Of a DNA stretch of 64,000 nt, positions 621-64,000 are shown one piece after another. The notes beneath the pieces are model-generated. The model had not been told where the DNA came from, made no database searches, and saw only the letters and a program-made list of their open reading frames with translations. Where the stretch lies: the NCBI GenBank assembly GCA_029964075.1, contig CM057135.1, positions 29,687,366-29,751,365 of the forward strand. Reading direction: 5' to 3'. Positions within the stretch are counted from its first letter, which is position 1. Each line of letters starts with the position of its first letter. The translations under genes were made by a program, and so were the position numbers. This stretch comes from Patiria pectinifera. Taxonomy: Eukaryota; Echinodermata; Asteroidea; Valvatida; Asterinidae.

Positions 621-1513
621 GGACGTTCCAGCGGGCGGACACTTCTGGGGTAGGTGCATTGTTGTCCCTTTGTCCCTATTTCTAAAGATTTCACTTGCGG
701 GGTATCTCATTTTCTAAAGATTTTACTTGCGGGGTACCTCGAACAAAGGACAGGTACCCCACAAGTGGTCCCTGGTAAGAACGGACAGACATACATCCAG
801 ACGGACGCCCTAGGCGATGACAATACCCCTCGAGCCTCTCGGCTGAGGGGTAAAAATGGGATCAGCACAAACCAGTTTCTGGAAGGTCTTGGGATCCACA
901 GGCTGCTGGGAGAGAAGGTGCTCCGTGATTGACATCAATGGTTGCGAAAGCTCACTTGGTTTGAAAGCTATTTAGAAGCATGGAGGGAAATATGAAATGT
1001 GAAGTAATTTAACTTTAATGCATATATCCTAAAAGCAGACAGAGACAAGAACGATTGGAATGGTACGGAGCTAGTAGTGTGGATAACTTCCATATTCACA
1101 AGTAGAAGTCTGATGTCATTTCAGGCAGAAACCTCTGCCTTGTTACTTGTTACAATCCATATACTGCCCCAAAGTCTATGGTTAATGGATTTCAGGGAAA
1201 CATTCGAATGTTATACTGAGTGGTTAATATAATTGACCCATTAAGCCAGGTATCATGAATGAAATTCATTGGACCCAAGTCTGCAACATACCAAGAATTT
1301 GTGTTTAGTTGCTTCTTGAATTGTACATCTGAAAGAACTCCTACAAAAACAGCATTTGACCAAACCCAAAAATTTGAAGCATGACTAAACACAATGGGAT
1401 ACTTACTTACTATTGTGCATTGAGATATCTCCACTGACCGACCTATTGTGGGTATCATCATGAGTGGAATTCATGTTCATCAGAGCTTTCAATTCATGTC
1501 GTAATTCACTCAC
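621..1513. other. CBP intronic DNA with repeat-like segment
   Basis: No coding exon recognised. A short direct duplication (ctaaagatttcacttgcggg / ctaaagattttacttgcggg) lies at about 683-735. A GC-richer stretch follows at about 740-930, with small inverted matches around ggggtacc. It looks like an old dispersed repeat. No terminal repeats or target duplication could be fixed. Confidence 0.4.
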
Positions 1514-4500
1514 CCTGCTGCTGGCCTGTGGTTTCATGTGTGATCCAAGGGTTGCTAGTACTAGGCATAGTGGTGTCGATGTTGTGGCCGGCATTCAGAC
1601 CACTGCTACTGCTGGGTTCAGACTTCAGCATGGCATCCGTCTGCTGCTGGACACCAGCATTTATAGTCAGGGGAACTTTGAATGCACCTGTATCATCTAC
1701 ATGAAAGGAAATACAGGGCAAGTCAAAAAAAGTGGAACCCAAACCCCATAATACATATTTTTGTTAATCGAAATTCACTAAAATCAGTGTGCCGTGCAAA
1801 CGGAGCGGGATACCACGTTCATTTTGTCTTAATACACGCCACGAGTGTCGGTTACAAATTGCGACAACAAAATAAACCTACTTGTGTTCAATACTACTTA
1901 GGCATCCTGCATGCATGCGCATGGTATATCTGTGTGCAATAGCGCCCACACGTCTGGAAAGCGGAGTTGAGAGATCAATTTTTTTTCTACCAAAAACGAC
2001 CGCAATTTCTGAATAAACTTCATGAATAATGGGAGTCATAACACCTCTTTACGCCAAGACAAAAGTGTTTTTTTTTAGAGTGAGCTGATACTTATTATTA
2101 CCGTTTAGAATGGACTAGTTTTACGTGTTTCCAGGTGGATTCCCTTTACGTACGGGAATGCCCGTGGGCCGGGCCGTGTTGTTGGTAAGGTACTGTATAC
2201 GGACTGCAGCTGCATTCCGCCGTCACTGAACTGGACATTTGTTATGTGTTTTATCGAATGAAAATTAATATTTTAAGATCGAAAATTGGGGTGGGTGGGT
2301 GAGTAAAAACAATTTTGATAAAAAAAAATTGAAATTTAAAAACATCGAACATTTTGAATGGCCCCTAAATAGTCCGGTCAATTTAAGTTAAGACCTAGAA
2401 CATTTGCAATAGAAACCATTCAAGCGTCAAACGACTTTACATAAATACACAAACAACATGTGAAAAATCTAATTGTTTCTATGGAGTGGAAGGGTGTTTT
2501 TCAAGCATTTTTTCAGATAAAAAATTTGGGACATTTTGTCCTCGAACAATTCGTCTGGTGACTTGATGCGATTTAAATGTCTATATAAGCTAATGTTTAG
2601 GATTCATGACCACATGCGAGTGCAGCAGACGACTGTTTCCAATTATAATTTTATACAGGGCACTACGGATGGAGTGGACGATTTTCCGCCGAAACTTTGC
2701 GAAATAAGTCCACAGACGAGATACAATTATTTGCAAAAAGGGCCGGGGATGTCTAAACATCATTTTGATCATACACATATGGAAAACGGTGGGACAGTGC
2801 ATGTATGGACCGACTCCAATATTCAAAATTGGACTCTGGCCTATTGGCGTAGACACCTGAAAATTAAATTTAATGGATCTCTTTGTGTATATCATTTCCC
2901 GCCCTTTATTCAAGTAGCCCTGTTCAGTTAATACAAAGATTTTCTGTGAAACAAATGTTTTTGGGGGCACAAAGTGATTTATTTTAACCAATAAATATTT
3001 CGGGAAGCAAACAAATCTCAAATTTCTTGATTTTTTTCAAGAAAATATCCTATAGTATTATGCGCAGTGTAAATTACAATATATTTTAATAATTGGTGGA
3101 CATAAAAAAAGTTGTGTGCTGTGATCAGTCGTGTCTTGCGAAGTCTCATACTTGATGTGAACGGATTTTCTGACGAGTAACGGGCACAAAAGAAAACATG
3201 ACGCTCTCCACAGCTGTTTTACGTATGATGAAAAATTAGTAGCGAAAAAGTGAATAAAAACACTTTTCCACTCCTGTAATGAAATTAGATTTTCAGTATG
3301 TTAAATAGTGATATTTCTTTAGCGTGATAGCATTAAAATAAATTCTATTGCAATTTGTTCTAGGTCAGGCCCTGTTTTGTTCTAAATTGACCGGACTAAA
3401 AGTCTCACAATTCTACTTACTAAGAGTGTTGGGCATTCCCGGTGGCCTGGTCTGATTCTTGGTGTTGTACGGAATGCACAGTGCCTGGTAAGCCCGCTGC
3501 ATTGAGTTCTGATCAATGGTTGTGGTGATGGCAGTGGAGCCAGGCAAAGGGCTGGCCATGGCGCTGTGCAACAATTTCTCTGCTTGAAGATTGAATTGCA
3601 AAAAGAGTGCGTTTTAATTTAAAGGCATTTGAAATGTGTACCAACAAACTCCAATCAATGAACTCTAGAATTGTGTTCAAAATCCAGAAATACAAATAAG
3701 CAACATTCTAAACTTTAAATGGATTTTTTTGTCATACTCACATTGCAAATTGTTTCAGACTTGTATTAAAATCTAGCGTGCTAAATGTGTCATTCAATAT
3801 CTACAATCAGTTTTCTCTACTTTGGATATCCAATGGTTATTTTACTTAATAATGAAGGGTTTGTGGAAACACCATGTGTGAATAATTTCTCAACTAAGAG
3901 AATGGTTCTGAAGAGAACCAGAGGTATAAACGCGACGTTCCGAGTTACTTGATAGAATCCAATCCTGGACACTTGTTATGTAACTTACAATAGATTAATC
4001 CTTCAAATGATTCAAATATCCAAGATTTTTTACGATAGTTACCATGTCGTCGGTCGGACACATGCTTGAGTGGCAAGCACACTGGACAGTCACTACGTGT
4101 GCAGTTCTTCCAGTGAGTGATAATCTGCCTTGATGAGGCACAGTGGGCGACTACCGAGAGAGGAAGACAATACCAAAAGGAAGACAATGTACCAAAAATC
4201 AAAGATGTACTGCACATGCTTATAAACATATTCAATTTGCCTGCTGAAAAGATTTGAACTTGTAGATGTACGTTTTATTTAACCCCCCCCCCCCCCATTG
4301 TACTTTTGGGTCTGCATCCCTCTGAAATTTTATGCAAAAACAGGGATCTTGTCTGACTACTCCTCACCTTGGCAAGACTTTCCCTCTTGGCAATTGGTCA
4401 TGTGGTTGAGCACGTTCTTCATGGTGCGGCAGTGGGGCAGGCCGCACTGCTTGTTCTCCCCGTTGGCCTGGTTCTCCCGCCGCTGGCACTTGTGTGCGTG

Positions 4501-5884
4501 CAGCAGCAGCACCAACTGCTGCTGGATCAGCTTGCGCTTGCCCAGGTTGGCTTGGGAGGTCTGGGTCCCGACGGCCGCCCCAGGCTGGGTACCAGGCATG
4601 GCAGGCTGAGCACCTTGGCCGATGCCTCCCTGTGATTGAAAAAACAAATCCCAGACAACATTAGGAAATGTTCATTCAACAAGTTAATTCAAGTGCTGAC
4701 ATAAATGTAGAAACTATGATAAATACATGTGATGTAAACAGTCCAAAGCAGCAGTGGAAGAGAAAGTCATATGTTATATCAGCATCTGATCAAAACAACT
4801 GATTTGGCAACTTGAATGTTTAGATGAGTAGAGTTTTCTGACTGCACAAAATCTCGACACAGGCTTGATAGTGCACTGAAACTTGTGCCAAATTAAACTA
4901 AAGTCGTGAAATTAACTTTGAAACTCTGAATTTTTTTTTGAAGCTATGCACACATGAAAGCATGACGTTAGTAAAGCTTGAGTAGAAGTTTAGAGTAGCT
5001 GAGACAGGGTGGGCAGTTAAAGAAAGAACGGGAGAGAGAGAGAGGGAGGTAGGAAAGCAGAGCAACCCGCTTACCATAGAAATGCCACCTGAAATATTCA
5101 TATTGACATTGCTTGCCATGTTTCCAGCCATGTTGCCAGGCACATTGCTGGTGATGTTGGACGGCAGACTGGACGAGGGCAGGTTGCCGGCAAGATTGCC
5201 GCCCAGGCAAGGGCGGATCCAGAACACAATTTTGGGGGGGGCCAAAAAAAAATTTGGTCCCCTAAAAAAGTGGGTCAAAAAAATTACGGCGTGGGGTTCG
5301 GGGCCCGCTTAAGGGCCCCGAAAAAATTTGGATTCTAGATGCTCTGTGGTGCGATCGGAGGCAATTTCTGACCACTTTAACCAATGTTTTTTTGAGGAAA
5401 AGATGGTGGTGTACTCATTGCCTGCCTTTATTGCGATGTCACATAAAAAAAAAAAAAAATTGGTTTCGTTTTGGGGGGGGCCATGGCCCCCTTTGGCCCC
5501 CCCCTGGATCCGCCCTTGCGCCCAGGTTCCCCGAGGAGTTGAAGCCACCGACCATGTTGCCGTGCATGCCGCCGGCCATGTTGGGCAGGTTGGCGCCGGC
5601 TGCTGTCACACCAGTCAGATTACCCGGCAGGCTGGCCGCCAGGTTATTGGCCAGGTTGGGGGTCATGTTGACGTTGGGCATGTTCAGGCTGTCCAGGATA
5701 CTGCCGCCACCGCCGCTGCCACCTGAGAGAGTTGTGGTGGCGCTGGTGGGTGTGTATGTGGACATGGCGTTCAGTTGAAGGGAAGGAGTTGAGGCGGTGG
5801 AGCCCACTGAGGAGCCCAAAGAGCTGGCATTGTTAGAGCTGGATCCAATGAGTTCTTCGGACAGATCCAGTAAATCCAGCAACT
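1514..5884 (-). CDS. CREBBP: CBP/p300 histone acetyltransferase, N-terminal exons (partial, exon broken by a transposon)
   Basis: Transcriptional coactivator and lysine acetyltransferase of the nucleus; only the region up to and just past TAZ1 is here. Exons seen, 5' to 3': 5884-5075, 4629-4368, 4150-4043, 3579-3421, 1687-1514, with phases that agree at each junction. Exon 4629-4368 carries the [18 protein letters not shown] helix and the first zinc ligands of TAZ1. Exon 4150-4043 carries [17 protein letters not shown] and CPVCLPLK, completing TAZ1. Exon 3579-3421 has [11 protein letters not shown], matching the conserved segment after TAZ1 in p300. The initiator exon was not found; KIX, bromodomain and HAT lie to the left of the window. 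The first exon seen is rich in Asn/Gly/Met repeats and begins [11 protein letters not shown]. It is interrupted at 5208-5518 by a hAT-type element that adds stops and a frameshift (319 bp with the duplication). Removing the element and one 8-bp duplicate restores [11 protein letters not shown] in frame. The domain calls are secure; whether this allele is expressed is not. Confidence 0.9.
2372..3396. mobile_element. 1.0-kb inverted-repeat element in a CBP intron, TA target
   Basis: Terminal inverted repeats begin GTCCGGTCAATTTA at 2372 and end TAAATTGACCGGAC at 3396. The similarity continues inward as degenerate repeats (CTAGAACA.TTGCAATAGAA). A TA dinucleotide flanks both ends (2370-2371, 3397-3398), as in Tc1/mariner-type insertions, but two bases are weak evidence. 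Open frames inside (131 and 143 aa on opposite strands at 2536-3021) show no transposase motif that I recognise. Confidence 0.65.
5208..5518. mobile_element. 311-bp hAT-type MITE inserted in a CBP coding exon
   Basis: Perfect 15-bp terminal inverted repeats CAAGGGCGGATCCAG at both ends. The flanking 8-bp direct duplication CGCCCAGG is at 5200-5207 and 5519-5526. An 8-bp duplication with a CA(R)GGG-type end is the hAT pattern. The interior has no transposase. It contains a ~100-bp core (about 5287-5395) that also occurs, reverse-complemented and roughly 90% alike by eye, in the element at 18119-18904. The C/G homopolymer runs resemble other repeats in the window. Confidence 0.92.
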
Positions 5885-6056
5885 CTGTAAAATGAGGACG
5901 ACAATCATTTAGTATCACATTTTAAAATGCCTTTTTTTTATTATCAAGATTTCCATCATTGCTCAGCATAAAGCTTCAGTTTAACACATTACATGATTGA
6001 GCTATCGGGAAACAAGGGTTACAAATGTCAACTCAAATTCCAACAATTTCAGGAAG

Positions 6057-6137
6057 CTGGCACTTGTGTGCGTGCAGCAACAGCACCAACTGTTGCCTGA
6101 TCAGCTTGCGCTTGACCAGGTCAGCTTGGGAGATCTG
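6057..6137 (-). pseudogene. partial duplicate of the CBP TAZ1 exon
   Basis: These 81 bp align without gaps to 4483-4563 inside the TAZ1 exon, with roughly eight mismatches. The minus-strand frame is still open and reads [18 protein letters not shown], the first TAZ1 helix with one Gln-to-Arg change. An AG precedes the homologous block (aatcag|ATC). No splice donor follows the Cys, and the similarity stops before the next zinc ligand. It is therefore a fragment of an exon duplication, upstream of the repeat-rich exon in transcript order. An alternative exon cannot be ruled out but lacks a donor. Confidence 0.8.
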
Positions 6138-6888
6138 ATTATCTAAGAAATAAACACAGAGAACGTCAAAATACATACTATGGTAAAAATTTCATTTAAG
6201 TTTAAATAATGATTATTGGATATTACACATAAAATTATGGTCTTAATGTGGGGGCCTTGCCTTTCAAAAAGGAAATTACAGTTGGAGGCAGTCTGTCTAG
6301 GTCCAATTTGTACTTGTTTTGGAATTCATTTGAGAGCTGCCTGCATGTTGATATAGTCCTTGGTGTATTGACAGAGGGCACAATTTACTGATCATCAGCT
6401 TCTTGACCATGTTCTAGTAACGCCTTGGATATTACATGCATTAATTGAGTGAGGGACTACACTACATAAATCATGATCGACGCATACATTATTCATATCA
6501 CATTTTAAGGCACCATAGCCAAACTTGGGATTCAATTTAAGTGCAGGACTGCATCGGATTGATTAACATAAGATCATTATAATCAAGTCATTTAAATAAC
6601 GTTAACACGAGTAATATTCATATTAGGCCAAATAAAAAAAAACATGTTAAGCATCCCCACCCGTTTCCTTTTCGGAGGCCCCCTTCTTTTTTCTTTCTTT
6701 CATTAACTGAAAAAAATGATAATTTTAAACAGTAACATCATTTTGGCCTCTTTGTCTGTTGCATCTAGCCCATATAAAGCTGGTATAGCACAGTTGGGTA
6801 GCCATTTTGGAGCAAAAACAAAAGGGCCTCCTCCTTCCTTTTTTTCAAAAAGGCATGACGCTAAACATGTTTTTTTTTAAATTTGGCC

Positions 6889-8710
6889 TTAGTAACCTTC
6901 AGTATCCTTCTTTAATGGTGGTTGCATGCAATCATCTTCAGCAGAGTCAAGTTGTCTCTTTCCTGACCAAGTAAAGAATAGACAATTGTACATTTAAATA
7001 TTCAGTAGCTAAGCCAAAAAAAAAGTCTCCGGTTTCTGGTATGCGCGCGCGTCGTCGTAGCCATGGGCGTCGGCAAAATGAAAAAGTCTTTTTTTCAATG
7101 AAAGATGACGTCTCAAAACCACCAAACTCACTGGTTTGACTGGAATCCTGCTGCTGCACAATTTTAACGTGTTTTTAGATTGGGTTATGGTCGAGAATAA
7201 GGTTTATGTGACCTCTCTGGACTTCCATATAATTGCACTTAGTTTAGTCGGGCACCATTTGCAGTCATCAGCCGACATTTGAAGGAAAAAAAAATCAGGT
7301 AAAAAAAAAAAAAAAAAAGCCACGTCGATCGCCGCACCACTTTTTGGGCAAGCTCCATACCAGAATACCAGAAACCGGAGACTTTTTTTTTTGGCCTAAA
7401 AGTTAAAAGTCAAAATTGGGGCAGTTTAAAACATTTTATAACATGCATGTAGATCTAACATTAACTATTCTAGATAGAGATTTGCAGGATCTCCATAGAA
7501 CAAAATGCACTGAATTAACCTTAATTCTTAAGGAGATAAAGACCTTTTGTAAATTATATTAAGTATTGTAGAATTTTATTGGCTACAGATTGAGTTAAGT
7601 TGGCCTAAGTTTTTAATTGTTTAATTATTTTGATGTCTATTCACATAGTTTTTGTTAATTATCTGGATACCACTCTGAATGGAAGATTTCTTGAAATGAA
7701 ATTGATTCACTGAAATAAACTAATAGCTTTTTGTAGATTGTCAAAATCACCGAAATGGGTACTCTCTTTTGCTTGATATATAATTACATGTATATACTTT
7801 TGAACAGTAACTTACTTTTATTTTCCCTTATGCTTCTGCCAATATCAATGAGGGTTTGGAGAACTTCATCCATAGTGGGTCTGCTTCTGTATTCCGCTTG
7901 CCAGCATTTATTTAGAAGCTTGCTCATTTGTTGGTGTTCTGGGCAGGTACTTGGAATTTGAGGGCGTTCGTTTCTCTCAACTACTTCTTTGTAGATCTGA
8001 ATCTGTTGTTTCCCGGGATGGGGGGCCCGACCAGACATTATTTCCCACATGACAATGCTAAAAGAAAACACATCTGATTTGGTTGTCACCTTGCATGGTT
8101 TCCTCACGCTTTGGGGATCATATGCAACACTGCCGAAGGCCTCCGGGGCCATCCATGGCCAAGATCCCCTATTGCTGACTGTGCTGATGGTTAACTCACA
8201 TTTCCTGGATATGCCAAAGTCACATATCTTCAGTACGTTATCGCTGGTGACAAGGAAATTGGGGGATTTTACATCTCCATGCTGGTACTTGTTCTGATGA
8301 ATGAACTGCAGAGCGCTGGCACCATCCTGGGCCCATTTCATCCAACGGCTCTGCATATACTCATGCCAGTTTTCACGGTGTCGGCAAATCACATCATGTA
8401 AAGAACCTTCCTCTGCATATTCAGTCACAATGATGTGACTCTCCCCTATGGAAGTTGGCAGAACAACTCCAAAGAACTTAATGATATTTTTGTGATTTAA
8501 CCTTGCCAAAATCGCAGCTTCGTCCTCATGGAAATGATGGCAGCACTTTGCAGCAACTGTCTGTTCTCCTGAAGATTTTTTCCACTTTGTCAGGTACACT
8601 GGATTCTTGCTTTTGTTGGATATCACTCGAAAATCATTTGAAATGTGTCCTCGGTCAATAACCGTGTACGAAGATTTTTTCATATCTGGTGAAATATAGA
8701 GCACAGACAT
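6889..8710 (-). CDS. TKL/MLK-like (ZAK-like) protein kinase, two exons
   Basis: Predicted Ser/Thr kinase of 322 aa: exon 8710-7816, then exon 6962-6889 (donor A|GTAAGT, acceptor GGTCAG|GA, phase 1). Similarity is to mixed-lineage/ZAK MAP3Ks, for example NHKNIIKFFGVV and VTEYAEEGSLHDVI. Residues visible: VAAK Lys about 55; a Glu at 62-64 for helix C; HGDVKSPN at 144-151; DFG 164-166; MAPE 187-190; SDVFSF at 212-217; a late Arg about 277 in RSRP. Two oddities: there is no GxGxxG loop in the first 55 residues, and the catalytic HRD is HGD (a non-RD form). No leucine zipper, SAM or SH3 domain follows. The short second exon adds a basic/acidic tail (RKRQLDSAEDD ... LKKDTEGY) that could hold a nuclear signal. 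Start chosen as the first in-frame Met at 8710; upstream exons encoding a glycine loop are possible. Confidence 0.82.
7013..7396 (-). mobile_element. Harbinger-type MITE, copy A (kinase intron)
   Basis: Family end sequence GGCC-A(n)-GTCTCCGGTTTCTGGTA appears inverted at both ends. The left end has lost one G (GCC). A TAA target duplication is at 7010-7012 and 7397-7399. The body is reverse-oriented relative to the copies at 24312, 35831 and 53565. It lies in the intron between the two kinase exons. A 3-bp TWA duplication is the PIF/Harbinger signature; no transposase is present. Confidence 0.88.
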
Positions 8711-8839
8711 GATTACAAGGGTGAATCATTACAAGCACTATTACAAATGTATATATCACTGTAAAATAATATAAATTGTTTTTGCCTACTCCCTAACCCA
8801 CAGTCTGCCCATGCAAGTTCTTTTCCAATGTACAGTATA

Positions 8840-18000: not shown

Positions 18001-19112
18001 AGAACGCGCTCCTCATACTGGGATAATTCTTGAGGCAGTGGTAGGCCATGGGTACAGCACTGAGTATCTAGGCCCCCGCCCCCTTGCCACATATCCAGAT
18101 GAGCCACTGAGTATGACCCAGTGGCGTAGCCACCAGGGGGCGTGGGGGCGACCGCCCCCATGAAACCTTGTCGCCCCCCCCCCCCCAGTCGCCCCCATTG
18201 AGATTTTGAGTTTCTTAAAAAATTATCATTGATCTACATGACGCCATGGGCCCTATTATGTACTACAATGTATCTTTTGCTTAGAAAATATTGGTTAAAA
18301 GTGGTCAGAAATTGCCTCAGATAGCACCACAGAGCATTTAGAATCCAACATTTTTCGGGGCCCTTAAGCGGTCCCCGAACCCCACGCCTATAGCTCAGAA
18401 TTCTGGTAGCTGATTCAATGACTCCAACCTCGAAAACAATGTTCACGAAATTTTCTTATGTCTTTAGCTGAGAAAACCTCGAAAATTATGATTAAATTAA
18501 TATCTTTTGTGCTAAGATAATTATTGGTTAAAGTGGTAAGAAATTGCCTCAGATCACACCACAGAGCATCGAAAATCCAAAAGCTCAGAATACCAATAGC
18601 TGATTCAATGTCTCCAACCTCGAAAACGATGTTCAAATAATTATCTTTTGCCAAGAAAATATTAGTTAAAGCACGGAGGAAAGTCGTAAGAAATTGCTTC
18701 TAATCACACCACAGAACATCTAGAATCCCCGAACCCCACGCCGTAAGGGTTTCGCGCTTCGCGCTTGCATCAGTTATGAAGGTATGTCCCCCCCCCCCAC
18801 TTTTGAGAAGCGATTGACGCCCCTGCTTGACACCCCCATGAAATGTTCCAGCGCCCCCAGCGCCCCCCCCACCCCCTACTGAAAAATTCCTGGCAACGCC
18901 AGTGGTATGACCGAAGGAGACTACCCCATGTATATTTGTTTGATTACCTCTGTGTATCTTTCTGCCCAAGTGTCGTAAAAACTGGACAACTTTTCCCCGC
19001 CGGCTTTATCAGTATCAACAGCATGTCCCTTGACATAGGCTTCCTTCCGATAATCGGCAAATTCGTCTAAAGTGTTGAAATCTGCGCGTTCTCCACCGCT
19101 GACAGTCGCCAT
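15044..19112 (-). CDS. METTL27: METTL27-like methyltransferase, copy 1
   Basis: Predicted SAM-dependent methyltransferase of 236 aa, close to the human METTL27/WBSCR27 length; substrate unknown. Exons: 19112-18948, 17892-17770, 17066-16931, 15921-15826, 15234-15044. All introns are GT-AG and the phases agree. Exon 1 has LSSFYDTWAERY, matching HFYDRWAPDYD in METTL27. Exon 2 has motif I ILDAASGTGMVG (about 83-94). Exon 3 supplies IDALDPSQ with the acidic residue expected after strand 2. Exon 4 has VVMCGALG and CFPELIRITKPG, and exon 5 closes the fold (GGYIMFTLADKVK ... VLRVLPK stop). Start is the first Met of exon 1. Intron 1 holds a 786-bp hAT-type element. It is most similar to copy 2, and the two look like a recent tandem duplication. 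Confidence 0.9.
18119..18904. mobile_element. 786-bp hAT-type MITE in intron 1 of METTL27-like copy 1
   Basis: Left end CAGTGGCGTAGCCA and right end (inverted) CACTGGCGTTGCCA form imperfect terminal repeats. The 8-bp duplication GTATGACC is at 18111-18118 and 18905-18912. The inside holds two or three degenerate direct repeats of about 150 bp (landmarks GCTGATTCAATG.CTCCAACC and CACCACAGA.CAT) and long C runs. A core at about 18290-18388 is shared with the CBP-exon element. No transposase. Confidence 0.88.
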
Positions 19113-31600: not shown

Positions 31601-33857
31601 CTGTCGAGCGCAATTTGAGTCCCCCGCGCAAGTTTAAACTTGCGCGAGGGACTCCCGAAGCACGCAAATTACACAGCGCCATTTTAATTTGCGTGCGCAC
31701 GTTACAACTTGCGCAAAGGCGATGTGCGGGCGGGATTTTCATTGATGAAGAAAAATAAATGTTTGAAACACAAGGAGAAATAAATTAATAAATAACAGAA
31801 TACATTATTGAACAAAGAAATTAATAAAAAGTGGAATTCAATTAGCGTCAATGAAAAAAAACATTGAGATTTAGAAGTGCATATCAGAGAAGTTTTTTAG
31901 GAGGCGAGGGCGGGAAGGGGACCAGGCAAGCGTACTGAAGTTGTTCGAAAATCAGAGTTGTAACGAGTCACTGATTTTTGTGACATTTTTTAGAAGTGAG
32001 GTCATTAGAAGTGACGAGTCGAGTCTCGAGGTCAGGTCGGAGTGAGGTCGAGTCGAGTCGTCAGAGTCGAGTCGAGTCGAGTCGAGAGTCGTCCGAGTCG
32101 TAGAGTCTTTAGCTCGAGTCAATCAGTAATATTTATATTTGATATAATAAATTACAATAAAAAACAACAACAAACACAAGAGAAGACATAGGCCAGTCTA
32201 TTACGAAAATAAAAAAACAAAAAGACATAAAGTATGCTGTATGCTACACAACCCCAACCAGCAGTTGCTCTCACGTCCAACAAAGAAGAAAGACTTCGGA
32301 CTTATAACTGGTTTGGCTGGTCGGATTTTGTTGTGTGTTGTTCGCTGCTCGCAAACAACAAAACCTAATTGCATATAACAAAACTGTTCTATTTTATTTA
32401 AAGGTGGGCCCGTCCGTATCCATTTGTTTTTGTGGAAAGACAATTTAGCCAGCGTTCCACCAAGAAGAACAAAAAAAACGAAACCAATGATGAAAAAACG
32501 GCGGATTGAGAAATGCGTTTTAAGTCTGGTTCCGGGTTTAGCACATGCTATAGAACCACAAAGGTGGGAGTCGCGACACGGTGTATGTTTGTTATATCAT
32601 TATGGAAAGAGGAAAACAGACGGCCGACGTGAACAAAAACTGGCAACGAACGGCGCGGCGCAAGTCATTGCAAATATTTTTTCTCAAGTTTTTTTTTTTT
32701 TTTTTTTTGGACTCGAGTCTTATTAGCCTTCCTCGAGTCGAGTCGGAGTCATCTGATGAGGGACTCGAGTCGAGTCGAGTCGAGTCATTTACCCGTCGGG
32801 ACTCGAGTCGAGTCGAGTCGCCAAAAAAAGTGACTCGAGTCGGACTCGAGTCGAGTCATTGACTCGAGTCATTACAACTCTGTCGAAAATGGAGACAACT
32901 TGCTTCAAGATTTTTTACCTTGCATATGTAAAACTAATTAGCATTTTATTTATATTCTTAAATGTAAATAAATCACAATTTCCTAGGGGTAACCCGTTGT
33001 TAACGTAAAAGAATGATTATCATCCCTTCAATTGTTCAAGATTTTTGACGTTAAAGTAATCATTTACATTATTTCTTAAATGCTTTAAATTATATTACAT
33101 GTACTGTACAACTGAATAAAGTACTTATTCTTAAAAAAAATACTAATTTTATTAATTTAGCAATTAATTAATTGGACGGTACAATATTTCATTTTGTTTT
33201 TAGAAATACTTTGCATAACATTTCGAGCGCTGTGTACACTTCAAAAATGCATAATTTGATTATTTTTTTTTAATGAACTCATTACTAATTTAATTAATTA
33301 ATTTAATTTATTACTTTAAACAATTATTTTACTTGCAGGCTCAATAATTCATATTAATGTTTACGTGCTTTAACTTAAAAACGCTATGCATATAAAATGG
33401 TAATTATTTTAAAAGTAAATAAATTTATTATTGATTTAATTAATTAATTTAATTTATTAATTTAATTAATTAATTCGAATTAATGAATAAATATGTTGTT
33501 CATTTAACAAAAATCCTAATGAGCCATAAACAATAATACATGTCATGAAAGTGCATAAATTGTTCGCATTACCACCCCTTATCTCTGAGCCCACACAGTC
33601 AACATCATTAGCATAATACTGTAAATAAAATGTTTCAAAAAAGGCATTAAGGCATTGTCTCACGAAAATCTGCTTTTAAAAATAATGTTACATATCTGCA
33701 TGAGTTTACCAGGAAAAAAATTAGTTTGGCGGCTTTGCATGCATGGGAAAAATCTATGTAGCGCGCAAGTTTGAACTTGCGTGCGCAATTTGTAGCTAGG
33801 AAATTAATGCACGCGCAGGTTTAAACTTGCGCGGAGGACTCAAATTGCCCTCGACAG
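31601..33857. mobile_element. 2.26-kb inverted-repeat element hosting a nested hAT-type element
   Basis: Left CTGTCGAGCGCAATTTGAGT is mirrored at the right end, after which both arms contain CCGCGCAAGTTTAAAC-type palindromes (31629-31655, 33760-33790, 33810-33835). No target duplication could be matched. The interior is AT-rich (TTAATTAA runs at 33280-33480). It lies between METTL27-like copies 3 and 4, immediately upstream of copy 3. Confidence 0.6.
31953..32882. mobile_element. 930-bp hAT-type element with GAGTC-repeat ends
   Basis: Terminal repeats CAGAGTTGTAACGAGTCA / inverted CAGAGTTGTAATGACTC. The 8-bp duplication TCGAAAAT is at 31945-31952 and 32883-32890. Both subterminal regions are arrays of GAGTC/GAGTCGAGTC (about 32010-32110 and 32710-32875). 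No transposase domain seen in the middle. Confidence 0.9.
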
Positions 33858-43861: not shown

Positions 43862-45987
43862 TTAAGACTTGAACGCAAAATCTGCGACAAGCGACAAGTG
43901 ATCCGACGGGTATTGGTAAGATGGTAGTCTGTCCTTTCCGACGTCCTCCTCCGATGGCAATTGTAAAACCTTGACAGGTTGTAACTGGTTTCGGGAGAAC
44001 CACACATAGTCTATGGTGTGGCACACCTCTCCAGCTGGACGGATTTTCCAGGTTGTGTAAGGAGGCTCTGAGTTGCCATCCTCACTAAGACACTTGTAGG
44101 CACTATCCAGTGCCATCTTGCTAGCCTCAAAAGCCTTGTAGACATCCTCAGTCGGCTCGGCATTGAAATCTCCGCAGAGTATTACCGGGCAGCCGCCGGC
44201 TTGTTTCTCAAGGATCTCTAGGAGGTTCAAGCCTTGAAGATGTCTCAGCTTATGCCAACTTGACCTGGCTTTCAGGTGAGTGGTGCCGACGAGAAATTCC
44301 TTTCCATGATGCTCGGCGGGGGACTTGCATTTCAACCGCAGTAGGACTGCCACCTGATTTGTAGGCCAAATGCTTCCCCGGTCTTCTACCTCTAAGACGG
44401 GACACGTGCTACCGGCCAGAGTAAACTTCTCTGGTTTGAAGAAGACGGCGCATCCATCCGGGCCGTTGTTGTGGATGCAGTCCAGGCACGGGGAGTCCGG
44501 TTTGGGTTTGAAGATCCCCTGGTAACCCACTCTCTCCAGCTGCACTCGGAAAAAATCCTGGAAATGGTCCACTTCCTGGAGGCAGACGATGTCTGGGCCG
44601 TAGGTCAAGATCTCGCGGAGGCAAGAGATGCGTCTGGTGTCCCACTGTAGGGCCTCGCCGGGACACTTGATGAAATTGTCAGCTCCATCACTCAGTGCTG
44701 TTTTAAGACAATCGGGGAGTACAGGTAGTTATTATTAATCAGATTCAAGTTGTTGGAAGGAGAGGTCGTTCCAGTGACGGTAGCCATTGCTTGTGGAGCA
44801 TGTCATTTTCTTGCCTGTAGTCTGTAACTTTTCGCACTCTCCCAATATTATTTTTTGCGAAGATACTCACTTCATTTGCTTGTACCAGACCTGATACTGC
44901 CACTTCTAGGCAATTCTATCAGTATCATCATCAATTAATTTCAATCATTTTTATTATCAGCATCGTCGCCTGCAGACATCCAAGACACGCGCAGACAGTT
45001 CATACAATAGGAAACATTAAAGGTAGATATTCTTCACCTAACCACTGTTGCCACATGCGGCATTGCGATACATATATATGAACGGAATCCTGTACAGTCA
45101 AAAGTACACTACTTCTAGGTTGAGTAGGTAATTCTCTTTAGTCAAAGACTTTCATAAAGATACCATTTTATTATGTGATTTTAAAACTCCAATATTCCAC
45201 ATCAGACTGTTTACTTGTAAATACATTTTTGAATAATTGAAACAGCCTCGACCCAAAAATATGCCACATTCTAAAATGGGACATTCTCAAAGAAACATTT
45301 GAATTATTGGATCTCTCAAACATTACCCGTGCAAGTTAGAAAAGTGGGGAACTTACCATCGGCAAGAATATTCCATTGCATGACCCTGATGGTATTACTG
45401 TCCTGCCCCTCCACTCCGTCCACTGCCTCCCCCGATAGCAAATGGAAGCTTCTTTTCAACAAAGACGGCTTGTTGTTCTGCGCATCAATGCAGTGTTTTA
45501 GCAACTGTTGACTGGTCATCTTGCCTGAAGGGATTTGGTCTAGAATATCGGAGTGCGGCATTCTGCTTCGAGATGTCGTCCTTCCCATAACACTGAAATT
45601 AGAGGTCATATTCAATAGCTTTCAAAAATCCACTCGGGCAAAAAACATAAAACCAGACCTAGACTTGGCTTGTGCCTAGCTCAGTTGCGGACTGGATTTG
45701 GATTTTGAAGTATGTTTGAAATATTAGAAAAATTCTTCAATTTGCAATTTATCTATCATTACTTGAACTCGATTTCTTTTTCCATTTTGAATTTCAAGTA
45801 CCTGTAAGATTCAAATCTACTTTTGTTCCTGTTTTAGCTCGAGGACTCAAACCCGGTTTTGACAACAGAACTGCACTGTATGTCTCTCTGTTGCCCATCA
45901 ACTAACTTACATGTTAACCAGCCAGTAGAGTTGTCTTGCCACCACGAGGAACAAATTTCGATAGACACTCTTTAGAGCTACTTCCAT
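43862..45987 (-). CDS. NOCT: Nocturnin (circadian NADP(H) 2'-phosphatase, EEP fold)
   Basis: Member of the CCR4/EEP nuclease-phosphatase family. Known nocturnins remove the 2'-phosphate of NADP(H) and were earlier described as deadenylases. Coding exons: 45987-45911, 45592-45357, 44697-43862, giving 382 aa with consistent phases. Exon 2 has IRVMQWNILAD, and exon 3 has LQEVDHF, NNGPDGCAVFF, THLKAR, CGDFNAEPTEDVYK, SEPPYTTWKIR and the final SDHLSLVADF. All expected metal and catalytic residues (Glu of QEVD, His of THLKAR, Asp/Asn of GDFN, final His) are present. The N terminus (MEVALKSVYRNLFLVVARQL) is hydrophobic and basic, consistent with an organelle-targeting or signal-anchor role. The start rests on one splice model; an internal Met at 45588 is the alternative. 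Confidence 0.93.
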
Positions 45988-52608: not shown

Positions 52609-55600
52609 CTAGGTGTCCCATTTTTTGTACTCCATTCCATCTGGTGGTTTAATTTCCGTTTTCTGAGGGCCGATTTCTTTCCAGTTGGTGCTGAGGACAG
52701 TGCCGCCTGATTCCGTCTGTAAGTGAAAAGAAATGGATTCTTAAAAAAATCGTTTAAACGTAAGGGCCCCGTCTCAATTCCTACCCGGGACGAGTTCCGG
52801 AGAAGTTGGGGGTAGAATCGTTCATTTTGTTCGGTAGAAGCTCCTGGACAAATTTGTATTAGCAACTGCTTGACACGCCAATACTGATAACTTCATTGCG
52901 GAAGATCGTAGGGAAGTTGTTCAGAATCCTGCAACTTATACCTGATACAATGTCGGCAACTTGTCCAGAACTCGTCCCGGATATGAATTCAGATGGGCCC
53001 TAAATTCATATTCAACAATTCCTTGTTGATAAAGTAAGATGACTGGCTTCATCAAACTGTTTTTCTTAAAGCAATGCTTGTTTTGATTAATTCGATGCGC
53101 ACTTTGAACGGCTCACTGGGGCTTACAAGTAATATGGTAACTTGAGTAAGACACTCAAATCAGAGACAGGAAAGCCTATGCTTTTGACTGAGGCACTATG
53201 CTGTAACTGTATATACCCGTGGACGTAAAGAGCTGATAAAGGCATGGCTGAGGCCTACATGTCAAATTGCATGCAGGGAGTAAAAAGAACGACTTCTTAC
53301 GAATGACTTGTTCATGGCCTTCTTGACGTCGTCCGAGGCATCTCCATAGATCTTTTGGAAGAGCTGGTTGAGGGCAGCCTCTCCCTCAGCCTTTTCCTTC
53401 TCCTCTTCCTCCGCTTCCTTGCCGATCTTGTCCCAGTTGCGTGTCACGTGGCTGGACGTCGGGTACTTGTGGACAATGTCTTGGGCATCTGACACCAGGA
53501 ACAAAAGAGAGCTGGCCGTAAGTGTTTACCTGAATGCTGTGGGGTTGTTGGGAAAGGTGGTTTAGGCCCCCCAAAAAAGGCTCCGGTTTCTGGTACGGAG
53601 CTTGCCCCAAAAGTGGTGCGGCGACCCGTTTTTTTTTTTCTTCGAATTTCGCCTGATGACTGCAAATGGTGCCCGACTAAATTAAGTGCAAAATGTATGG
53701 GAGCCAAGAGAGGCCACATAGAACTTATACTCGATCGTAACCCCCATCTAAAAACATGTTAAAATTATGCAGCAGCAGGATTCCAGTCAAACCAGTGAGT
53801 TTGGCGGTTTTGAGACATCATCTTACATTGAAAAAAACCTTTTTAATTTTGCCGACGGGCATGGCTACAGCGACGCGCGCACAGACTAGAAACCGGAACC
53901 TTTTTTTTGGCCTTAGCTGGTTTGTGGGTTGTAAAAAAAGAAATATTCCCCTCATTCAAACTACTCTCACGCAAATATCTTAAAAATCAGACCACTGAAA
54001 ACAGCTTTTATTAACATCCCTAAAAGAAAGAATTCTATTCAAGTCTGTTTCATCTAAGAGTGATCAAATCCCCAAGATTGTACTTGTATTGGGGAGAGGG
54101 AAGGGGGGGGGCAAAAGCCCCAAGCAAATCTCCTCCCATAAACAATCGGCAACACTTTGTTCAACTACAACGCACATGAAACAAGAGGCCAGTCTACCTT
54201 GATCTGTGGTTGCGTTGGTAGCTAGCGTATCCTCCCCTTCCAGCTTGTTCCACCTCAGTCCCTCTTCTTTGACTAACTTCAGCTCAATCTGGAAAAAAAA
54301 TAACCCAAATTTAATTCATACATTTGCAACAAATTTTACAAAAATATTGTCAATATATTGTCTTTTTACTTGTTTCCGCCAAATTGTAGCTATGTAGAAA
54401 GGGTGACAACTCCTTTGGACAAGACGAGAAACTATTTCCTTTTGTACTCAGCCTTGGGACACAATTTTGGACGTGATTTTTGTAGAAGCAAAGAGTCCAG
54501 AAAATGAAAAATCTGCCATCTTGGGGGGAAAAAAGGGGGAAGGTTGCTTCCTTCATTTTTTTTCCAAAAGGCAAGACAAAAAGCTTATTCTTTTTTCACT
54601 CAGACTAATTGAAACTTGTCTGAGGACTAACTAGAATAGAAGAACCTGAGAGATTCGGGTATTTTTCAACTAAACCTCAAAAAGTCACAAGGTGGCCCTT
54701 GACAAGGGAACTCCATGCGACCAAGAAGATACACTGACCAACCTTCATAGACATGATCTTGGTTGTGCACTTGGCAGGGACGACGTTGTGGGCCAGGTCC
54801 AACTCCAGGCTGAAGTCATTCCCAGAAGGTTGCTTGATTGTTGCGCTCACCTACAGAAGTCAGACATCACACAGTTAAGCCATCAGTCTGCCGGGACAGA
54901 GGGTGAAGTTAAAGTCGGACACAAACATTTCCCGACCGATTTTGTTGCAGAAAGCTGACAATTGTTCACTTTTTCAACATGGCCATGGGCGTCGCCAGGA
55001 TTTTTTCTAGAGGGGGGGCAAAACATTTTTTTTTCCCAAAAAATTCCTGTATTTCTCAACATATTCTCAATATATCAGTTTTAGAGGGGGCCGGGACATT
55101 TTGCCCCCCTCCCCCCAACCCATTAAATTTACACCACTATGACTTCGCGTCTCTTTTTCTTTTCTTTTTTCTCTTTTTTCTTCTTCCCTTTTTATTTTTT
55201 GGTGCTTTTCCAAGGGGGGGGGGGGCAAGCGCCCCCCTTTGCCTCCCCCCCTCGCGACGCCCATGAACATGGCCTCATTAATTAAAAAGATTTTGCAATA
55301 GGCCCTACCAAGATGCAATACTCACTGCTCTGTCCGTGTAATCCACTTGTACATCTTCTTTCTTGGCATTTTTGATCAAGAGAGTAATGACAACAGTAGA
55401 GTCTGTTTGGTACCAGTCATATCTGGAAAGAAAGATAATTTAAGCATGATATTCATCTAAGCACAAGTTTAAAAATCTACAAAACGTTTGTATGCATTGT
55501 ACTAAAAAAGCACATTTTTAATCTTTTTGAGATTTTTCTTTGACAAATACTTACAATATACCATAGAACATCTGTTCCTTGCGCTATCAATGTACATACA

Positions 55601-58600
55601 TACTTATTAATCACAGGCTCTGATCAAGGCTGGCTAGCTTAAGCCTGCTTGATTATGGGTGGCTGGGGCGAGGTTTAAAAACCTCCCTCCCAAAACGAGG
55701 AAAAACTTTTTCCCAGTGGCTATCGTTACATCATTTGACAATCTGGTTCCCTGACCTGACAATATTCAACGTCAGGCATGTCAGGATCGTTGGCTCTCTT
55801 TATAAAAATCCTCAAATTTGACCAACCCAAGCAGATCACTAAAAAAAAGAAATCCAATTTTACAAAAAGAGGCCTTAAAAAAAAATCGGTAGTCCTAAAA
55901 AAATGAAACCTTTTTTTTGTAGAACGTAGAATGTAGTATCCAGACACCACATCTTTAGGTTTTGTACAAAGTTATGGAGAGTTGTTTTTGTCATTGTAGT
56001 TAAGGGCATGTCTTTTGTTGCAATGATGTCTGATGACCTTCATTGAGATAATTAATATCACAGATGGAAAAGTGTTGTCAAGATGCATTCCTTCTGGGAA
56101 GAGGGCCCTACATTACACAATCACCGGATAGCCACACTACTTTTTTGGCAATCATGTATCTACGGGCCTAGTTCCTATAAGGGAACAAAATTTTAAATTA
56201 TTTGAGCTACCAAACTAGTTAGGGACATTAAGAACATACAGACAGGCCTACGGGAATGTCATGTATGTCACAGATAGGCCTAAAGGGCAGGGTTTTGAAT
56301 TTTCAATGGAAATTTGGGGGTAAAATGACGATGGCAACGACAAATTGCAACACGAAAAATACAGATGGTGATCACCGCATGATGTACCGTGAATGCACAA
56401 GTACAGTCGCACTGCACGGCACCAACTGGCCTGTAAACCCCATCATGCCCATAGGAAAATCATAATTTCTACGCCAAGAAACTTTTCAAAAATAATCAAA
56501 AAGGCGTCATTACATTGACAGACATGACAGAAGTCTGGTTTAGGTTGACAATGTCAGGTTTTAGTAATAAAAAAATTATTCTTGATTCTAATTTGATCGA
56601 AACAAAACAGAGGCCCTAGTACGGAAGCTTGAATTGCCTTCCGCGATACCGCTTTACCACGATAATTTATCGCAGAAATCAGGAATTCAAAGATAAATCC
56701 CTTCCGCGATACCGCGTTACTGTGATAATTTATCACAGAAATCCAGAATTCAAAGATAATTCCTTCCGCGATACCGCGTTATTGTGATAATTTATCACAG
56801 AAATCCGGAATTCAAAGATAAATCCTTCCGCGATACCGCGTTACTGTGATAATTTATCACAGAAATCCGGAATTCAAAGATAATTCCTTCCGTGATACCG
56901 CGTTATTGTGATAATTTATCACAGAAATCCGGAATTCAAAGATAATTCCTTCTGCGATACCGCGTTACTGTGATAATTTCCTCGATACCGCGTTACTGCG
57001 ATAATTTATAACAGAAATCCGGAATTCAAAGATCTACATCTACATCTACGCGGGTACTCAGCAAAGTCCACTTCTGGATGTTAACGCTGAAGATAATTCC
57101 TTCCGCGATACCGCGTTACTGCGATAATTTATCACGTATACGGAAGCTTTAAATTCATATGTCTCTCCTCTCTACAATCGATGAGTGCGCGGTGTCACGT
57201 GATAAATTATCACGGTAACGCGGTATCGAGGAAAAGGTATCTCTGAATTCCGGATTTCTGTGATAAATTATCGCAGTAACGCGGTATCGAGGAATACGTA
57301 TCTCTGATTTCTGGATTTCTGTGATAAATTATCGCAGTAACGCCGTATCGAGGAATAGGTATCTCTGATTTCTGGATTTCTGTGATAAATTATCGCAGTA
57401 ACGCTAGCTGGAGTTACCCAGCTCTGAGTTTTATCATTGGGTTGTCATCTAGAGCTGGAGCTCATTTTTCTCAAAAACGATAGTATAGGCCAAAAAAATT
57501 TGGAAAATGTTGAATTTTGTCCCCGTTACACACTAATTGCAACTGCAACTCACCCCAAACTTGCCTGGAATAACCATTACACAGGTCCTTGAAGTAAAAA
57601 ACGATCCAGGATGAAGATTCAGCCCACAATTGCAGTGAAAACAGGAGGAATAACCGCTAACCTGACAACCTTGCGACCATGTCCACGAACGCCAATGGTT
57701 TGTGCACACACAAAAATTGTGTACGATTGAATGGCGGTCGGTTACCGGTACCAGGCTGTCAACTAGTCGTTTTTGCCGGCTGGCGATTGGCTGTTGGCGC
57801 ATGACGTCGCGCGGAAGCGTAACACCCGATGACTGTTTCATGCACTATCGGTTGCGGTTCCAGTACCGCAGCTGTGATGCGAGTGGTAAACTTAATATGA
57901 GTACATGAAACAGTCATCGGGTGTTACGCTTCCGCGCGACGTCATGCGCCAACAGCCAATCGCCAGCCGGCAAAAACGACTAGTTGACAGCCTGGTACCG
58001 GTAACCGACCGCCATTCAATCGTACACAATTTTTGTGTGTGCACAAACCATTGGCGTTCGTGGACATGGTCGCAAGGTTGTCAGGTTAGCGGTTATTCCT
58101 CCTGTTTTCACTGCAATTGTGGGCTGAATCTTCATCCTGGATCGTTTTTTACTTCAAGGACCTGTGTAATGGTTATTCCAGGCAAGTTTGGGGTGAGTTG
58201 CAGTTGCAATTAGTGTGTAACGGGGACAAAATTCAACATTTTCCAAATTTTTTTGGCCTATACTATCGTTTTTGAGAAAAATGAGCTCCAGCTCTAGATG
58301 ACAACCCAATGATAAAACTCAGAGCTGGGTAACTCCAGCTACAGTAACGCGGTATCGCGGAATAGGTATCTTTGATTTCCTGATTTCTGCGATAAATTAT
58401 CGCGGTAACGCGGTATCGCGGAAGGCAATTCAAGCTTCCGTACCCTAGCTAGCTACTACATGATCACCCTTTTTTTACCATTTTGTTCACGAATTAAATG
58501 CAACTAAGAAGTCCATTGCATGTTATCAGGTTATGCCTGTTACTCCAAAATGTAAACTTACTTTTGCTTCAACTTCGGAGGTCCTGCTGATCCTTCTTTC

Positions 58601-63116: not shown

Positions 63117-63760
63117 TCAGACATCAGTGGTTAGGTTCTTGAGCTGTGCGTTCAGCTCTCTGTCATCGGGAAAGTCGTCCTCCTCGCTATCTTCCGTGTC
63201 ATCCACGCTGTCGTATTCACTTAGCCCCATCTCGCTGTCCGGATCGCACATCCCTGAGACGTCAGAACACGATGCGTTGGTGTCCGTGTACACCGACATG
63301 GACATGTTGTCCATGTTGGCGATGGCGCCCTCAAGGTCAAAGTTCAAGTCGCCGGTGGAGGCGGCCGACGCAGGGAACTGTCCGCGCTGCGGGTAGGGCA
63401 AGCCGTCTGATATGTCTTCCTCTGGGTCCGGTGGAGGCAAGGTAGAGTTGCTGACGGCATGCTTGGGCAAGTACTGGTTGGGATGCTGTCGGTAATGGGA
63501 GCTGAGCCCCACGTAGGGGGTGTCGTCCACCGGTGGGTAGCTAGCCAGCTGCTGCTGGAAGTCACTCATCGCCCCCCGGGGGTAGGGCATGTCTTCGTTC
63601 TCGGCTGGGTAGTCGGTATCCTCTCCGACGAACTCATCCTCGATGTCCTCGTCGGAGAGATTGGTGTTGGTGGGCGACTCGGGCGTCTCGTATTGCACTT
63701 CGGGGATGTTGCTGAGGGGTTCGCCGGCTGGCAACCAATCACTGCAGTCCCACTGGTATG
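63117..63760 (-). CDS. FAT1: Fat-like protocadherin (FAT1/2/3 type), last exon: cytoplasmic tail
   Basis: Giant atypical cadherin involved in planar polarity and cell-cell contact; only the C-terminal 214 residues are here. The exon starts at 63760 after the acceptor TTACAG and opens AYQWDCSDWLPAGEPL, matching YHWDTSDWMP of FAT1. Near the end, MSMSVYTDTNASCSDVSG and SEMGLSEYDSVDD match the conserved MSVYASTASCSDVS and SDYESGDD block of vertebrate FAT1/FAT3. NQYLPK also matches. The protein ends LTTDV, a class I PDZ-binding ligand like the C terminus of FAT1. The start of the exon is inferred from the acceptor and loss of similarity upstream; the rest of the gene lies to the right of the window. 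Confidence 0.93.
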
Positions 63761-64000
63761 CTGTAATGGTAACCAATGAAGATAAAGATGTTACAAAATA
63801 TGGATCAAACCTTTCTGTTGGGCTTGACTTGAGGGGTCTAGTTGAAAACACAATATCTGAAATCCAATATCAGAATATTAAGACAACATGCTCCGTTAAA
63901 AGTCTGGGAAATGAAATTGGAGGGAAAAATAAATCTAAAATGTGAACTTCAAATGCATGCTTTTCAAAGGGAAAATAAAACAATAAAATATCAATACACT

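Follow-up and report, generated by a model that had tools for sequence, protein, structure and literature searches.

A non-autonomous hAT-like miniature inverted repeat transposable element (MITE) has, in all probability, inserted recently and by ordinary cut-and-paste transposition into a partial CBP duplicate, rearranged and probably dispensable, in Patiria pectinifera. The window, i.e. the whole stretch of 64,000 nucleotides analysed here (C7:29687366-29751365), had been described in an earlier note as carrying a hAT-type MITE inside a coding exon of CBP/p300. The MITE, its target site duplication (TSD), its terminal inverted repeats (TIRs) and the break of the reading frame all stood; the exon of a working CBP gene did not, as comparison with the rest of the genome identifies the host as a partial duplicate in which exon 2 is fused to exon 3 and exon 1 is lacking, with no KIX or HAT match within 139 kb of the window. 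The apparent paradox of a transposon breaking an essential co-activator is removed in this way: the broken exon belongs to a partial paralogue, and a reading confined to the window can mistake a near-identical fragment for its parent gene. The features concerned are as follows (window coordinates unless marked C7).

5208-5518, minus strand (the strand of the host transcript): hAT-like MITE, non-coding, 311 bp; TIRs 15/15, TSD 8/8
5200-5207, no strand: TSD copy 1, CGCCCAGG; occurs once in the full gene, at C7:29457085-29457092
5519-5526, no strand: TSD copy 2, CGCCCAGG; 8/8 match to copy 1
5075-5884, minus strand: interrupted exon-like stretch, a fusion of exon 2 and exon 3, by sequence matches to the full gene
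4349-5814, minus strand: tract near-identical to the full CBP gene, by alignments of the exon 3 part, the intron and the TAZ1a exon
4369-4629, minus strand: first part of the TAZ1 exon (TAZ1a), open; Pfam zf-TAZ, p300/CBP TAZ1 structures, 98.5% to the full gene
4039-4148, minus strand: second part of the TAZ1 exon (TAZ1b), open; matches the full gene
3419-3580, minus strand: MQRAY exon, open; QALCIPY against QALGIPY in the full gene
1579-1688, minus strand: pre-KIX exon, one diverged piece (75%); in the full gene this exon closes with the KIX start, for which there is no match here
861-930, minus strand: first bromodomain exon, one diverged piece (86%)
6056-6137, minus strand: second partial copy of the TAZ1 exon, 82 bp, 91%
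7784-8725 and C7:29585514-29586440, C7:29614471-29615406, C7:29621413-29622312, C7:29632700-29633614, all minus strand: five kinase genes

Both ends of the element carry the same perfect 15-bp TIR, CAAGGGCGGATCCAG. A scan for 8-bp TSDs accompanied by ends matching in at least 11 of 12 bases returned five places in the 64-kb window, a single palindrome accounting for two nested hits, whereas 20 dinucleotide shuffles gave no hit; the arrangement at 5208-5518 is therefore no chance structure. When the scan was relaxed to 15-bp ends with at least 12 matching bases, 18111-18912 and two hits in a local repeat (32065-32818) were added. One TIR end and the element interior were scanned against viral contigs, with 0 matches each. 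The host transcript of the interrupted exon corresponds to the minus strand. Its CBP-like frame is open upstream of the element and then runs into a TGA at 5441-5439 within it; stops are present in all three host-strand frames of the element, and downstream of it the CBP frame is shifted, the added 319 nucleotides being 3x106+1. Without the element and one TSD copy the exon measures 491 nt and is open throughout, including the 11-residue stretch across the junction. The dimensions given in the earlier note (311 bp, 15-bp perfect ends, 8-bp duplication), the frame shift and stops brought by the 319-bp addition and the restoration of the frame upon removal are thus all borne out.

The genome of the same animal was searched for further copies (613,548,705 bp in 1020 contigs). 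First-look candidates numbered 3363. The 40 that were scored all matched, namely the window copy and 39 others at 94-98% identity. In 32 of these the match starts at query base 8-10 and stops at 319-320, so that it covers the element and leaves out the TSD, while the remaining eight, the window itself included, extend 1 to 8 bases too far at an end; the match limits of the other copies confirm the boundaries of the element. Eight copies (that of the window and seven others) were inspected. All have the identical 15 bases at both ends, and seven of the eight have a perfect 8-bp TSD, with one mismatch in the copy L004. Compared with the majority sequence of the other seven, the window copy deviates at 3 of 310 positions and in two gap columns, one difference being private to it. 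Judged by these copies, the MITE family of the element is young, high in copy number and hAT-like. Its placement with hAT is made from TSD length and from TIR form, by the hAT end consensus. TIRs of hAT-type MITEs are given as 10-25 bp in PMC3942097, and the 8-bp TSD, the short TIRs, the length of 311 bp, the stops and the high copy number are all shared with MITEs of this superfamily. In contrast to the usually AT-rich interiors of MITEs, the element is not AT-rich, its G+C content being 48.2% (window 39.6%); AT-richness is described as a usual, not a defining, trait (PMC3942097).

Three more hAT-like elements with TSDs were observed in the window. The MITE at 18111-18912 has different ends (CAGTGGCG...) and the TSD GTATGACC, and shares about 118 bp of interior, at about 90%, with the element in the CBP duplicate, part of it repeated three times; the likeness of the two sequences points to an exchange of interior between MITE families. 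The two others, at 31945-32890 (TCGAAAAT) and 54976-55273 (AACATGGC), have 8-bp TSDs.

The position occupied by the element is empty in a second locus. When window 4350-6160 was searched in the genome, the 42 matches listed comprised the window, copies of the element and one other locus, C7:29455722-29457929 on the opposite strand, which matches in three pieces at 97%, 99% and 87% and is without the element. At the insertion point two of these pieces adjoin, with an overlap of 8 bases (C7:29457085-29457092) that corresponds to one CGCCCAGG. The empty site was read directly as GGGAACCTGGGCGGCAATCTTGCC; the stretch of the full CBP gene around it is otherwise 97-99% identical. This gene occupies C7:29450484-29472816 on the plus strand, on the same contig as the window copy, inverted to it and about 235 kb away. 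It contains exon 1 (MADLEGPPNKRAKL..., with an apparent phase 1 end), exon 2, which includes KNKQLTKLLQ, then exon 3, TAZ1, KIX, bromodomain, HAT, ZZ, TAZ2 and NCBD. Seven of eight full-gene open reading frames (ORFs) gave Pfam matches (TAZ1, KIX, bromodomain, HAT twice, ZZ, and TAZ2 with Creb_binding); the eighth, another frame of the first bromodomain exon, was without a Pfam match. The gene is called complete by the parts found, rather than by a model of every exon or a frame covering the whole mRNA, and we infer that it is the working CBP. Since its flanks differ from those of the window copy and both lie on one contig, the sequences identify the full-gene locus as a paralogue of the window copy, not an allele.

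Genome-wide searches, in which every candidate was scored, agree with this. Exon 1 occurs once (C7:29450451-29450588), KIX at two loci (C7:29459k, plus strand, and 29548k, minus strand; 7/7 candidates), HAT at two loci (C7:29467-29469k and 29518-29520k, both plus strand; 16/16 candidates) and TAZ at five places, the window having the TAZ1a half only; such family searches can miss small, diverged or split pieces, and the TAZ1b halves of neither copy were listed. The earlier note had considered the insertion a heterozygous null of an essential gene. A heterozygous or very young null allele of CBP would account for the destroyed frame with a stop inside the element, for the open adjoining CBP exons and for the youth of the element. 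As an allele of the full gene, it is refuted by the empty site in that gene; exon 1 is missing from the window copy, KIX and HAT searches gave no match in its vicinity, and a CBP with all parts and an empty site stands elsewhere on the same contig, between different flanks. We therefore regard a null allele as very improbable, and readings built on the premise that CBP is essential lose that premise. No second haplotype of the window copy was found among the 42 listed matches, where an allele should rank near the top, or in the TAZ search. The insertion in the duplicate may still be polymorphic.

The interrupted exon of the window copy is itself rearranged. The first 66-70 bp or so of CBP exon 2 (5815-5884) are joined to the middle and end of exon 3 (5075-5814), the matching bases in the fused exon being 1-66 for exon 2 and 66-361 and 354-486 for exon 3; about 844 bp of the full gene are missing between the two parts. 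The TAZ1 domain is present, and the TAZ1a, TAZ1b, MQRAY and pre-KIX exons all read open. Motif searches for exon 1 in the window were negative (best 40-mer match 22/40) because the window copy has no exon 1. Neither KIX nor HAT_KAT11 was found within 139 kb of the window by the genome-wide searches, with all candidates scored; C7:29640001-29687365 was covered by these family searches only. Continuous homology to the full gene ends at window positions of about 3399 and 6048. The 82-bp TAZ1 copy at 6056-6137 has an AG just upstream (6144-6143) and is open, with a stop soon after.

Identity to the full gene is unevenly distributed. Around the element it amounts to 419/421 aligned bases (99.5%) in the exon 3 part, 425/430 (98.8%) in the next intron and 258/262 (98.5%) in the TAZ1a exon, a tract of about 1.15 kb, whereas the noncoding sequence on either side reaches only 87%, 73% and 82% of aligned bases. 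In bins of 100 aligned bases, identity is 96-100% over window positions of about 4423-5856 and 75-88% in the adjoining noncoding bins. The high identity of the tract between diverged flanks is best explained by an older copy whose centre was recently converted or duplicated again, gene conversion being the more plausible of the two. The same 1.15-kb tract, at 96-100% per 100 bases, could suggest an assembly artefact in which an alternative haplotype of the full gene was misplaced and now stands as the window copy. Such an artefact would not produce aligned introns of 73-82% outside the tract, a fusion of exon 2 with exon 3, or an end of continuous homology on both sides; moreover, the two copies stand in inverted orientation on one contig with some 235 kb between them, and the 200 kb read contain no run of N. 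We hold this explanation to be extremely improbable.

Just outside the tract, the TAZ1b and MQRAY exons are 95% and 97% identical to the full gene, against 73-82% of the aligned intron bases there. These conserved exons hint at past coding constraint or at patchy conversion, and before the insertion the duplicate may have made a short protein. Against constraint stand the pre-KIX and bromodomain pieces with only 75% and 86%. Codon changes relative to the full gene (2 synonymous and 0 replacement in the exon 3 part, 1 and 3 in TAZ1a, 4 synonymous and 2 amino-acid changes in the MQRAY exon) are too few to decide constraint.

The following course of events would reconcile these data. An older partial duplicate of CBP, without exon 1 and with exon 2 fused to exon 3, would have stood beside an array of CBP fragments. 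Its centre would then have taken on almost the sequence of the full gene, either by gene conversion or by being duplicated anew. The MITE, moved by a transposase made elsewhere, would most simply have landed in the duplicate after that refresh, the element being absent from the full gene. The insertion would destroy the frame of the duplicate, probably with little effect on the animal. The order of these events and the dispensability of the duplicate are our reading of the observed structure, family, empty site, architecture and identity profile, and the case appears mostly ordinary.

Removal of the element from RNA was considered in two forms. The spliceosome might remove it as a new, Introner-like intron, or an in-frame intron from 5442 to 5261 might leave an insert of 46 residues. 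An in-frame GT-AG pair does exist in the element, and one of its acceptors scores 7.5, compared with 9.5 and 10.2 for the two neighbouring inferred acceptors; the scores come from generic matrices, not trained on P. pectinifera. However, on the transcript strand no GT occurs in the first 76 nt (the first lies 76 nt in), no AG in the last 54 nt and neither in the TSD, so that the earlier remark on the absence of a clean GT-AG pair at the element ends was correct. The best in-frame pair (5442 to 5261) sums to 9.1; 298 of 500 shuffled elements are as good or better, and so is the element when flipped. Introners can recruit splice sites from the TSD or the flank, according to Gozashti et al. 2022 (PMC9860276), and that account describes a similar situation, a DNA element with short TIRs and TSD within exon-derived sequence; here, in contrast, no splice site is supplied by the ends or the TSD and the in-frame pair stays at chance level. 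The suggestion of a new intron, having lost its premise and failed its own test, is scarcely credible. That of an exon skipped or alternatively spliced has lost its premise as well, and skipping is rejected, as loss of the 491-nt exon (2 mod 3) would shift the frame. Read-through or frameshift at the poly-T run is also rejected, the later frame having a stop in the element. Downstream restart at the in-frame ATGs at 5131 and 5119 (A at -3, G at +4) is moot given the full gene.

In the second form, SOS splicing, paired terminal repeats would mark the element and RTCB would religate the mRNA, partly rescuing transcripts of the duplicate. Besides RTCB, SOS splicing depends on AKAP17A and CAAP1. 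As presented in PMC13247085 and PMC13155455, paired terminal repeats trigger a spliceosome-independent removal in animals, and the spliced mRNA depends on RTCB (PMC13247085). The terminal repeats studied here resemble those of the described system (Zhao et al. 2026, as cited in PMC13247085 and PMC13155455) in their ability to pair, in silico only: 14 of 15 TIR pairs form with probability 0.88-1.0 within the exon, and the element with its TSDs is predicted to fold to -130.7 kcal/mol (z -5.4). An open frame is regained with 208 of the 625 pairs of cuts lying no more than 12 nt from the ends. However, folding of this kind is to be expected of every element with ends like these, arithmetic alone leaves the frame intact in one third of cuts, and, as a difference from the described system, there is no need for rescue, survival being independent of it if the full gene works. 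SOS splicing would be compatible with a MITE insertion into a dispensable duplicate; we consider it quite unlikely.

Partial gene duplicates and pseudogene fragments collect transposon insertions, and the region shares with them truncated, rearranged copies near an all-parts parent and insertions in the exon-homologous sequence of two duplicates. It differs in the young, high-identity tract within an older diverged copy and in the mixing of the array with kinase genes. The second of the two duplicates is a plus-strand copy of the 3' half of CBP (C7:29501272-29536096, 92-97%), broken by a 1,710-bp insertion in the open stretch before the bromodomain (C7:29502118-29503827) and an 11,907-bp insertion in the TAZ2 exon (C7:29521968-29533874), with further insertions also outside exon-homologous sequence. 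The matches flanking the two insertions overlap by 7 and 4 bases, which suggests TSDs. Minus-strand CBP fragments at C7:29547-29612k (loci L027-L034; 74-95%) carry KIX, first-bromodomain, ZZ and TAZ2 exons. The whole minus-strand fragment array (C7:29547000-29612200 and window 861-6137) also has MQRAY and pre-KIX pieces. In two of its TAZ2 copies (C7:29556k and 29610k) the matched stretch is free of stops and the Cys/His residues are retained, the match of the copy at 29610k ending before the last Cys.

Each of the five kinase genes is open over 300-313 amino acids, with pairwise dN/dS of 0.45-0.63. In the window the kinase frame runs up to a donor, AGTAAGT, where the exon ends at 7816 in phase 1; splicing from there would stay in frame with the TAZ1 fragment at 6142 as well as with the exon at 5884. 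All five copies have AGTAAGT at this position, near the end of the gene and in phase 1. On these grounds kinase-CBP chimeras are possible. The window copy could even be, or have been until the insertion, a short gene in its own right. It would be a CBP decoy with TAZ1 but lacking KIX and HAT, perhaps in fusion with the upstream kinase, whose TAZ1 was refreshed by recent conversion from CBP and which the MITE then switched off or from whose RNA it is SOS-spliced. We consider such a gene unlikely. The remaining interest of the region lies in an all-parts CBP that has many rearranged fragments of itself and an array of kinases for neighbours, one of the CBP fragments having been renewed through recent conversion or re-duplication before a young MITE entered it.

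Elsewhere in the window, Rfam returned one tRNA only. A gene of the Exo_endo_phos family at 43862-45621 (Pfam match at 43862-44728) resembles nocturnin, and the ORF at 63117-63869, for which no Pfam match was obtained, resembles the tail of a FAT cadherin. A perfect-ended palindrome spans 57701-58045; the ORFs at 57533-57844 and 57896-58213 have nearly the same sequence on opposite strands and mirror each other.
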